DNA of 39,701 nt from Acidobacteriaceae bacterium (lineage in GTDB: Bacteria; Acidobacteriota; Terriglobia; Terriglobales; Acidobacteriaceae): the NCBI GenBank assembly GCA_025360645.1, contig JANYBT010000136.1, forward strand, positions 1 to 39,701, read 5' to 3'. Of the stretch, positions 21,084 through 23,712 are shown in pieces (position 1 is the stretch's first letter; each line of letters begins with the position of its first letter). Under the pieces are notes generated by a model. That model was not told the origin of the DNA, searched no databases, and saw nothing but the letters and a program-made list of their open reading frames with translations. Made by a program: the position numbers and the translations under genes.

Positions 21084-23405
21084 CTAATTGTTTTCGTTCC
21101 CTGCGCGTTTCCACGACAGCAGCTCGCCAATCGTCGAACTGGTGCTCGAAACCGGCTGCTTGTAAGCCTCCACATCCGCGCGCGAGGCTTCTTCCCCCAC
21201 CGCTCGAATGCTCAGGCCCACTTTCTTTTCGTCCGGGTTCATTTTGATGATCTTGTACTCGTGCTCTGAGCCCGGCTCCAGATGCAGCGGTTGCCCGTTG
21301 CCGTCCACCGCCTCAGAGATGTGGCACAAGCCTTCAATGCCATCCGCAACTTCAACAAATGCTCCGAACGTCGCCACCCGCAGCACTTTGCCGTGGACTA
21401 CGTCGCCAATCCGGTGTTGGTCGAAGAAAGTGTCCCACACATCCGGCTGCAACTGTTTCACGCCCAGCGAAAGCCGGCGATTGTCTGGCTCGATCGCCAG
21501 CACCACCGCTTTCAAACGGTCGCCCTTCTTCAACACTTCCGAAGGATGCTTCACCCGCTTGGTCCAGCTCAAATTGCTGACGTGTACCAACCCGTCAATT
21601 CCGTCTTCAATCTCGATAAACGCGCCGAAGTCGGTCAGGTTGCGCACCCGCCCTTCCACGATCGCGCCCACCGGATACTTGTCGTGCAACGAATCCCAGG
21701 GGTTCGCCGCCAATTGCCGCATCCCCAGCGAAATCCGGCGTTCCGTCGGATTCACGTTGAGCACCACGCACGCCACCTGATCGCCCACGTTCACCAGCTT
21801 GGTGGGATGCTTCATGCGCTTGGACCAGGTCATTTCGCTGACGTGGACCAGGCCTTCAATCCCCTGCTCCAGTTCCACAAATGCTCCGTAATCGGTCACG
21901 CTGATCACCCGCCCCTCCACATGCGCGCCCACCGGATAGCGATGCTCCGCATCCAGCCAGGGGTCGGGAGTCAACTGCTTGAAGCCCAGCGATACCCGCT
22001 GCTTGTCTTTGTCGTACTTCAGGACCTTCACTTGAATCTGGTCGCCGACATTTACCAGATCGCGCGGATGCGTCAGGCGTCCCCACGACATGTCGGTGAT
22101 GTGCAACAGCCCGTCAATGCCGCCCATGTCCACGAACGCGCCGTATTCGGTCAGGTTCTTGACCACGCCGGTCAGGATGGAGCCCTCTTCCAGATGCTCC
22201 AGAGTCACGCCGCGCTTTTCCGACTGTTCTTCTTCCAAAAGCTGTTTGCGCGAAACCACAATGTTGCCGCGCTTCTTGTTCAGCTTGATGATGGCAACCT
22301 CAAACGTCTGGCCCTTCATGCCGTCCAGGTTGCGCAGCGGCCGCAAATCCACTTGGGAGCCGGGCAGAAACGCCCTCGCGCCCATAATGTCCACGGTCAA
22401 ACCGCCCTTGATGCGGTCCACCACCACGGCTTGGATGGGCTTCTTCTCGTTGTGCGCTTTCTCGATTTCGTCCCAGGCGCGCAGGCGCTGCGCTTTCTGG
22501 TGCGATAGATTGATGTACCCTTCTTCGGTGTGCCCCTTCTCCCGCATCACGTCGATGGGGTCGCCAGGCTGGAACCGCGGCTTGCCTTCGTGGTCGAGCA
22601 CCTGATTGATGGGCAACATGCCTTCCGACTTGGCGCCAATGTCCACCACCACATGGGTGGCAGTCAGCTTGAGCACCGTGCCTTTAATCACGTTGTCGTC
22701 GCCGGTGGCGTCTTCGCTCTCGCTGGTGAAATTCTCCAGAACCGACGCAAAATCATCGCCCGCCGGCGCTTTCTCCAGAATCGGCTCCGTGGCTTGCGGC
22801 CTCGCCGCCGCCGGAGCAGCGGGTTCGGGATGATGCTCCACCACCGCGCCCTGCGCCGGATGTTCGCGTTCGGCCGGGACGCCAGTGGAGTGGACGTCGG
22901 TGGCTTTGACGTCTGTGGACTGCACGTCTGCGATCTTGATCTCCGCGGTCTCGAGGTCTGCGGCGTGATCGTGAGCTCGCTGAGGTTCTACTGGCGGAAT
23001 CTCTGGCTCGCGAACGTCCGGAATGCGAACGTCAGGCTCATGAACCTCCGGCTCGCGAATGTCCGGCACGCGCACGTCAGGCTGGTGAACGTCTGGCTCA
23101 TGCACGTCCGGCAGGTGGACATCAGGCTCGTGAACGTCAGGGACTTGAACCTCGGGCTCGTGGACGCCCGGCTGGTGAACCTCGGGCTCGCGAATCTGGG
23201 GCGCCTGTGGTTCGGCGGGCTGAACATCAGCTGGCTGAACCTCGGCCGACTGAACGTCGGCTGGCTGAACATTACCCGGCTGAACATCGGACGCGTGAAG
23301 ATCATGCGGCTTTACATCCGCCGGCTGATCAGTGGTGGGGGTTTCGGAAGTGGGTACGGTTGTGTCGTCGAACAAGTTTAGATGCCTCTCCGATGTCTCT
23401 CGCAC
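21084..23405 (-). CDS. rpsA: 30S ribosomal protein S1 with a pentad-repeat N-terminal extension
   Basis: S1 brings mRNA to the 30S subunit through OB-fold S1 domains. Six are visible, starting at about residues 238, 322, 408, 495, 582 and 669; the last four carry the canonical GxVxxxxxxGAFV opening. The C-terminus after 740 is a short tail. The first 235 residues are not S1-like: residues about 28-177 repeat every five residues as x-(P/A)-(D/E)-V-(H/Q/R), for example ADVQP and PDVHE. The predicted GTG start at 23405 has no ribosome-binding site. A TTG at 23375 has GGAGAGG 9 nt before it and may be the true start. With six domains it would be 773 or 763 residues, against about 560-600 in most bacteria. 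Confidence 0.92.
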   Translation of the reverse strand: MRETSERHLNLFDDTTVPTSETPTTDQPADVKPHDLHASDVQPGNVQPADVQSAEVQPADVQPAEPQAPQIREPEVHQPGVHEPEVQVPDVHEPDVHLPDVHEPDVHQPDVRVPDIREPEVHEPDVRIPDVREPEIPPVEPQRAHDHAADLETAEIKIADVQSTDVKATDVHSTGVPAEREHPAQGAVVEHHPEPAAPAAARPQATEPILEKAPAGDDFASVLENFTSESEDATGDDNVIKGTVLKLTATHVVVDIGAKSEGMLPINQVLDHEGKPRFQPGDPIDVMREKGHTEEGYINLSHQKAQRLRAWDEIEKAHNEKKPIQAVVVDRIKGGLTVDIMGARAFLPGSQVDLRPLRNLDGMKGQTFEVAIIKLNKKRGNIVVSRKQLLEEEQSEKRGVTLEHLEEGSILTGVVKNLTEYGAFVDMGGIDGLLHITDMSWGRLTHPRDLVNVGDQIQVKVLKYDKDKQRVSLGFKQLTPDPWLDAEHRYPVGAHVEGRVISVTDYGAFVELEQGIEGLVHVSEMTWSKRMKHPTKLVNVGDQVACVVLNVNPTERRISLGMRQLAANPWDSLHDKYPVGAIVEGRVRNLTDFGAFIEIEDGIDGLVHVSNLSWTKRVKHPSEVLKKGDRLKAVVLAIEPDNRRLSLGVKQLQPDVWDTFFDQHRIGDVVHGKVLRVATFGAFVEVADGIEGLCHISEAVDGNGQPLHLEPGSEHEYKIIKMNPDEKKVGLSIRAVGEEASRADVEAYKQPVSSTSSTIGELLSWKRAGNENN
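22875..23324 (-). repeat. 15-bp/5-residue repeat array in the S1 gene
   Basis: About 30 degenerate 15-bp units encode a strict five-residue period across residues 28-177 of S1. D or E stands at every fifth position and V, I or L at the next. The units resemble the A(D/N)LxX consensus of pentapeptide-repeat proteins (ADVQS, ADLET, AEIKI, TDVKA, TDVHS), but many have proline at the small-residue position. The antisense strand also reads as an ANLxx-like ORF, a by-product of the repeat phase. Confidence 0.85.
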
Positions 23406-23712
23406 CGTGTGCGGGACGGAAGCGGGTTGCTTCAGGCGGACTGCTGGCTAGGGCTTCGGTTGTGGTGGGCTCATCCTGGCGGATGAGCTTGGACAATTCC
23501 AGCGGCCGGACGTTAAACACCCGCGTCCATTAGGGAACCCTTCGACTATAGCAACCGCGCGCAAACAGTGTCAAACGCCGGGAGTGGAGAATTCAGCGAA
23601 TTTACCAAAGCTTTACATGGCCCCGCTTTGGGCCGCCGGTTAGCCCGCCCGCCTTGGACCGCCGCCGAGGCCGTTTTAGCAATCCTGCGGGATTCTGATA
23701 CTCTGCGGCCAT
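23406..23712. other. Divergent intergenic region between the S1 and HIT genes
   Basis: These 307 nt separate two divergently transcribed genes and must hold both promoters. No strong promoter match, hairpin or small gene was recognised. Before the HIT gene, TTTAGC and GATACT spaced 16 nt apart (about 23674-23701) could be a weak promoter placing the transcript start close to the ATG. Confidence 0.35.

Follow-up and report, generated by a model that had tools for sequence, protein, structure and literature searches.

A 30-unit pentad array in the N-terminal extension of ribosomal protein bS1 from an Acidobacteriaceae bacterium, probably translated as an acidic, disordered arm

Background

Ribosomal protein bS1 plays a key role in recruiting mRNA and is attached to the ribosome by its N-terminus. 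As described in the available part of PMC10123108, the N-terminal helix of Escherichia coli bS1 binds uS2 at a site between the head and the platform, close to the SD-aSD duplex, and RNA binding is the task of the domains OB3 to OB6. Another RNA-binding protein, Hfq, has an acidic, disordered C-terminal tail, which mimics nucleic acid according to the accessible text of PMC5606850. In the available parts of two surveys of S1 proteins (PMC6566611, PMC6705787), neither Acidobacteria nor an N-terminal extension is mentioned. A literature search, judged by titles and the beginnings of abstracts and with most subscription papers outside its coverage, likewise made no repeat-bearing N-terminal extension of bS1 apparent.

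Here, we analyse an S1 gene from an Acidobacteriaceae bacterium, whose N-terminal extension contains a long array of five-residue units. The window, i.e. the whole stretch of DNA under study, comprises 39,701 nucleotides (contig JANYBT010000136.1 of assembly GCA_025360645.1). Periods of five residues are known from several protein classes. Among these are the pentapeptide-repeat proteins (PF00805 and kin), whereas the elastin-like pentads VPGxG and the proline pentads of the periaxin type have the same period without adopting a globular fold. For repeat regions such as that of periaxin, a row of equal binding sites has been proposed.

Results and Discussion

The array belongs to a six-domain bS1

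The mechanically determined open reading frame of the S1 gene extends from 23405 to 21084 on the minus strand and has 773 codons, beginning with a GTG. Its product matched the NCBIfam equivalog of 30S S1 (NF004952) with 687.6 bits at a cut-off of 524 over residues 215-764, and TIGR00717 with 606.9 bits at a cut-off of 577; six S1 stretches (Pfam PF00575) lie C-terminal to the array. The protein resembles its orthologue, the six-domain E. coli bS1 (rpsA), with respect to domain number, equivalog assignment and a putative counterpart of the N-terminal helix. The latter is the segment DDFASVLENF, which occupies the place of the docking helix, is kept in relatives, and contains a short helix (218-224) in the AlphaFold2 prediction. 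We infer that this segment is equivalent to the uS2-docking helix of E. coli; docking itself is putative. The two proteins differ in what precedes the helix: according to the available part of PMC10123108, Phe5 and Phe9 of E. coli bS1 are already within it, whereas 206 residues lie ahead of its counterpart here. Counted from the most likely start, a TTG, these are composed of 16 residues, the array of 150 residues, and another 40 residues (Table 1).

The array is a real feature of the S1 frame. It consists of 30 consecutive units without an indel, the reading frame is kept over 450 bases, and it is in frame with the six-domain core. Position 1 of the units is Q, H, R or K in 28 of 30 cases (Q10 H10 R5 K3 P1 E1), and position 2 is filled by ten different residues. 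Position 3 is P, A or T in 26 units (P14 A9 T3 H1 S1 G1 V1), position 4 is acidic in 25 (D17 E8 G2 N1 Q1 H1), and position 5 is V, I or L in 27 (V21 I4 L2 P2 D1); units 8, 9, 23 and 24 deviate most. Over 145 residues, self-identity at lags 5, 10, 15 and 20 was 0.43, 0.43, 0.36 and 0.38, compared to about 0.10 after shuffling (z 11-13), and none of the other lags between 1 and 20 exceeded the shuffled mean. Tandem Repeats Finder reported periods of 15, 30 and 45 bases between 22997 and 23328. An earlier, sequence-only reading of this DNA had proposed about 30 five-residue units ahead of six S1 domains of the same protein, with an acidic residue and then V/I/L at fixed positions. The counts given above and the common frame with the core matching NF004952 bear out all of this. 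The span proposed there (22875-23324, residues 28-177, with no strand named) denotes the same array, but is one codon late.

Table 1. Positions of the features in the window
Feature	Position	Strand	Remarks
bS1 (rpsA) coding sequence, most likely	21084..23375	minus	763 codons from a TTG at 23375, a start assigned by comparing relatives
Conserved 5' leader element	23443..23503	minus	8-pair hairpin 23469-23488 and enclosing 5-pair helix 23499-23503/23443-23447
Shine-Dalgarno-like GAGAGG	23385..23390	minus	9 bases before the TTG (23375..23373)
First 16 residues of the extension, LFDDTTVPTSETPTTD	23328..23375	minus	with conserved start motif
Array of 30 pentads	22878..23327	minus	Q27 to V176 of the GTG frame; [QHRK]-x-[PAT]-[DE]-[VIL]
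Last 40 residues of the extension	22758..22877	minus	similar beyond shuffles to 15/19 sister-clade extensions
Putative counterpart of the E. coli bS1 N-terminal uS2-docking helix, DDFASVLENFTSESED	22710..22757	minus	equivalence inferred from position and sequence
Antisense open frame over the array	22530-23381	plus	283 codons; by-product of the repeat's codons

Besides this gene, the genome of the window encodes a second S1-domain protein (L031:1294-3003, minus strand, contig 125; an intact open reading frame of 569 amino acids). Its N-terminus is short, and the array was not found in it. A search of the same genome for further copies of the array gave none at E<=0.01.

The start of translation and the 5' leader

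In order to locate the start, the S1 loci of relatives were compared. Those from named genomes came from the best 80 out of 254 relatives, nearly all of these 80 being metagenome assemblies under the titles Acidobacteriaceae, Acidobacteria, Terriglobia or Candidatus Sulfotelmatobacter. After removal of duplicates, 122 upstream regions remained, 95 of which contain an L-F-D-D-T-T-like start motif; the counts of TTG and of Shine-Dalgarno-like sites are confined to these 95 and leave aside the 27 others. In 94 of these regions the leucine of the motif is encoded by TTG, and in the remaining one by CTG; in the first part of the S1 core, TTG accounts for 11% of the codons for leucine. A Shine-Dalgarno-like tetramer is located just upstream of the motif in 86 of the 95 regions and in 16 of 470 control windows. 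Note that the motif search may misassign single rows, L010 apparently being one. As this common TTG and the Shine-Dalgarno-like site lie upstream of the array, the array is probably translated; they point away from a start near residue 215, which the sequence-only reading had named as an objection.

Alternatively, S1 might start at an ancestral site next to the docking helix, which would make the array an open 5' untranslated region. The sister family starts in this way: in all 11 loci sampled (out of 13 genomes with an S1 match) the extension is absent, and an ATG precedes the core by one to four codons. Moreover, several of the more distant members of the window's own family, which lack the motif, have retained an ATG at a distance of one or two codons from the docking segment, which makes dual starts possible there. 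The window, however, lacks such an ATG; the start codons closest to the core are GTGs, located 28-29 codons ahead of it. Together with the conserved TTG, the Shine-Dalgarno-like site and the codon signature described below, this makes an untranslated array very improbable.

Upstream of the start, a leader element with a covarying hairpin is common to 75 relatives. Four of the eight hairpin pairs show changes on both sides among these 75 sequences, and the enclosing helix is nearly invariant. In both helices taken together, 97.8% of the cells pair; 77 cells changed on both sides, whereas shuffling gave 19.8 and sliding gave no more than 2. A search of Rfam around the window's copy of the leader gave no match at E<=1, and the leaders of five relatives gave a single chance-level match, which is located elsewhere. 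The available part of a paper on ribosomal leaders (PMC7247131) does not mention rpsA. We regard the leader as a candidate autoregulatory element of the S1 mRNA.

Codon signature between the units

Neighbouring units are 63% identical at the DNA level and are therefore well diverged. At unit positions 3, 4 and 5, the second codon positions are nearly fixed (0.63, 0.35 and 0.56 bits), whereas the third codon positions are near saturation (1.98, 1.71 and 1.52 bits). One-step codon differences at these unit positions are synonymous in 63, 28 and 64% of the cases, with 33, 13 and 31% expected, in a comparison of units which share ancestry and which is made without a formal probability. No synonymous excess was observed at unit positions 1 and 2 (13 and 22%, with 16 and 28% expected). 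Because third positions are near saturation and the small/proline, acidic and aliphatic positions are fixed, the protein pattern of the array looks as if it were under selection.

Predicted fold of the arm

The sequence-only reading had offered two structures, a beta-helix or a disordered acidic arm, and had pointed to the pentapeptide-repeat consensus A(D/N)LxX. The period of five and the order small-acidic-aliphatic are indeed common to the array and the pentapeptide-repeat proteins, and a beta-helix of this (Rfr) type fused to S1 might also account for weak phmmer matches to PDB entries (4yfo, E=4.8e-4). We take 4yfo to be a designed pentapeptide-repeat protein and ascribe this match to the common residue order. 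The array had no match to a pentapeptide family at E<=10, and neither PF00805 nor its kin matched the whole S1 protein at E<=1. The residues are also the wrong ones. In 147 genuine units from five genes of relatives, the central residue is L in 84% and F in 9% of the cases, whereas the array has V in 21 of 30 units, L in 2 and F in none; at position i-2, the genuine units have A in 81% and P in 1%, the array P in 14 of 30 and A in 9. Thus the likeness to the consensus stands for the residue order; it fails for the valine in place of leucine or phenylalanine, the proline where alanine is the rule, and the profile match.

In an AlphaFold2 run without alignment (272 residues, pTM 0.19), residues 1-217 were predicted as coil, the mean pLDDT being 54.0 in the best of five models. 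As a positive control, a viral pentapeptide-repeat stretch of 144 residues, treated in the same way, reached a pLDDT of 94.5 and a pTM of 0.86 with a bridge every five residues in its best model; this control is one very regular sequence, and its five models ranged from 42.6 to 94.5, two of them being poor (63.9 and 42.6). The beta-helix is rejected by profile, residue make-up and the prediction with this one control, and we consider it extremely improbable. The disordered acidic arm agrees with the predicted coil and a net charge of -32, and an arm without a stable fold is supported by prediction with one control. In the elastin-like and periaxin-type pentads, as in the array, a proline is followed by a valine two residues on, without a globular fold. 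Elastin, however, needs Pro-Gly, whereas the residue after unit position 3 of the array is Gly in 2 of 30 units and Asp or Glu in 25.

Extensions and repeats in relatives

The distance from the TTG to the core is 206 residues in the window and 45-109 residues in the other 94 regions with the start motif (median 60.5); outside this set, longer extensions were found in L173 (112 residues) and L276 (about 138). Several of the family's extensions have repeats of their own, namely five-residue units in L121, L107 and L196, and 15-residue units in L173. In nine loci from other families of the class, 19-74 residues precede the core, as judged by the most upstream ATG listed, and one of these nine, L215, contains a five-residue repeat. 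The sample of the phylum comprised 297 genomes, 151 of which matched the S1 query; among 20 loci examined, chosen for long open frames, some have extensions of their own with six-residue repeats in L284 and four-residue repeats in L292. The array of the window was not found in any S1 locus examined in the samples of family, sister family, class and phylum, the genus being represented by one genome, the window's own. The sequence-only reading had named absence from all relatives as a reason to abandon its proposal. Literally, this absence is what the loci examined show, but in most of the S1 loci examined from the family an extension precedes the putative docking-helix counterpart. Since this extension, which holds the array, is so common among family members and since several relatives have shorter, different repeats in it, the array is better seen as a lineage-specific expansion than as an error.

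A quick tree search with 105 S1 cores placed the window as sister of a clade of 19 rows (SH-aLRT 89); no starred set covering up to half of the rows included this placement. Similarity to the extensions of this clade beyond that of shuffles (p<=0.02) was detected for the last 40 residues in 15 of 19 cases, for the first 16 residues in 10 and for the array in 5. The simplest history suggested by these similarities is that of an ordinary extension of about 56 residues (16 + 40), inside which a 15-base unit expanded to 30 pentads. With respect to anatomy, the arm is very probably a translated, disordered, lineage-specific expansion of the family's extension.

For the extension tails of relatives, identity was raised at lags 5, 10 and 15 (z 3.3, 4.4 and 4.3), with no excess at lag 20 (z -0.4) and a value of 2.0 for the highest other lag. 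These values were determined for 67 cluster representatives of 117 tails, which still share ancestry and do not include the window. The best lags of single tails also include 3, 6, 16, 17, 18 and 20. For 196 disordered-like control segments, z was 0.5, 2.0 and 0.2 at lags 5, 10 and 15 and up to 4.3 at other lags; the controls originate from mechanically called open reading frames, some of which are surely wrong frames. Five-residue-spaced repeats may thus recur in the S1 extensions of the family, although these data are suggestive only.

The main rival of a functional arm is that of a tolerated minisatellite: the front end of S1 would be permissive, a 15-base unit would have multiplied through slippage or unequal exchange, and the resulting arm would merely be harmless. 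The lack of the array in the relatives examined keeps neutral drift alive as an explanation; length and sequence of the extension vary strongly in the 94 regions, and other repeats arose in the extensions of relatives with units of 15 (L173) and 5 residues (L121, L107), as they did with units of 5 (L215), 6 (L284) and 4 (L292) in other families of the Acidobacteriota. This explanation has to cope with the protein-level codon signature between the units, with a frame which no indel disturbs over 450 bases, and with raised lags in relatives which are 5, 10 and 15 rather than arbitrary. We consider it a serious possibility, if not a probable one.

Charge and possible action of the arm

The net charge of the arm, counted over its 206 residues, compares to a median of -10 and a range from -17 to -2 in relatives. 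The charge per residue (-0.155) is the same as the relatives' median (-0.160); hence, only the total charge is special. As the arm precedes the docking-helix counterpart, it should be tethered at the uS2 site, and as no fold is predicted, its likeliest action is electrostatic. The arm would then form a flexible polyanion, tethered beside the platform that receives the mRNA. It might transiently occupy or shield those faces of the protein's own OB domains which bind RNA, or repel RNA nearby. As a consequence, S1 would release non-specific RNA more readily, as with the acidic disordered tail of Hfq, and the number of repeats would tune the reach and the total charge of the arm. Like the Hfq tail, the arm is acidic, is predicted to be a coil, and belongs to an RNA-binding protein; it differs in being N-terminal instead of C-terminal, much longer and repetitive. 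No homology is claimed. This RNA-mimic mechanism is doubtful when taken by itself: none of the relatives examined has the array, and charge does not explain the aliphatic position.

The constant aliphatic position, which charge leaves unexplained, keeps another interpretation alive, in which regularly spaced proline and aliphatic residues would offer a partner protein a series of equivalent binding sites. The aliphatic position (27/30) is the most constant one after the acidic one, and unrelated proteins of the family (L035, L042, L043 and the NPDIT proteins) have similar x-P-x-(V/I)-x pentads. However, a partner protein is not known, the position preceding the small/proline one varies freely among ten residues, and the repeats of relatives lack the motif of the array; we therefore think such a docking lattice unlikely. 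As a point against the polyanionic arm, a co-evolved basic partner tail was looked for on uS2 and not found: the C-terminal tails of uS2 are acidic in 30 of 30 loci, the window genome included, these being the best 30 of 59 matching genomes.

Our best reading remains that of a translated, disordered and polyanionic arm, which lies beside the putative uS2-anchoring helix and acts as an RNA mimic; as a whole, we prefer it tentatively, without calling it probable. A more far-reaching proposal is quite improbable as a joint statement. According to it, S1 would repeatedly evolve acidic pentad arms in this family because the period itself has a role, the arm would be a repetitive RNA mimic along S1's own row of OB domains and be displaced by mRNA, S1 would become a self-competing mRNA loader with an affinity set by the number of pentads, and the covarying leader hairpin would be the autoregulatory target. 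An acidic extension is widespread in one family and has become, in this case, a repeat arm of 206 residues under apparent selection at the protein level. If the arm is functional, the RNA handling of S1 can be tuned by a disordered tail; if it is not, the locus illustrates cleanly that an essential ribosomal protein can tolerate a repeat.

Similar pentads and antisense frames in the family

Database matches to the array occurred in 52 of 398 family genomes, the window's own included, and 19 of the loci were inspected. In five of these 19 (L038, L040, L044, L047 and L052), the matching frame is antisense to a genuine pentapeptide-repeat gene, which presumably has a TIR domain downstream, as indicated by a FISYS motif. 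The window's antisense frame over the array scored 24.8 bits against PF01469, below the cut-off of 26.4, and no match to PF00805 was found in the window genome at E<=0.001. An inverted pentapeptide-repeat gene is rejected as the working frame, since the saturated third positions of the sense strand are the first positions of the antisense frame. As a remote DNA source of the array, such a gene is conceivable.

Long runs of NPDIT/NPSIT pentads, which are near the P-D-(V/I) of the array, occur in large proteins of family mates (L034, L036, L037, L039, L041 and L045). Pentads with proline and valine or isoleucine are also found in the unrelated proteins L035, L042 and L043 (RPGVN; EPDVK; IPEVK/VPQIR), the EPDVK pentads lying at the tail of a membrane protein; such pentads hence arise repeatedly in the genomes of the family. 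Two other tandem repeats of the window are located near the start of the contig, one with an 8-base unit (x4.6) at 291-327 and one with a 21-base unit (x2.6) at 830-884.
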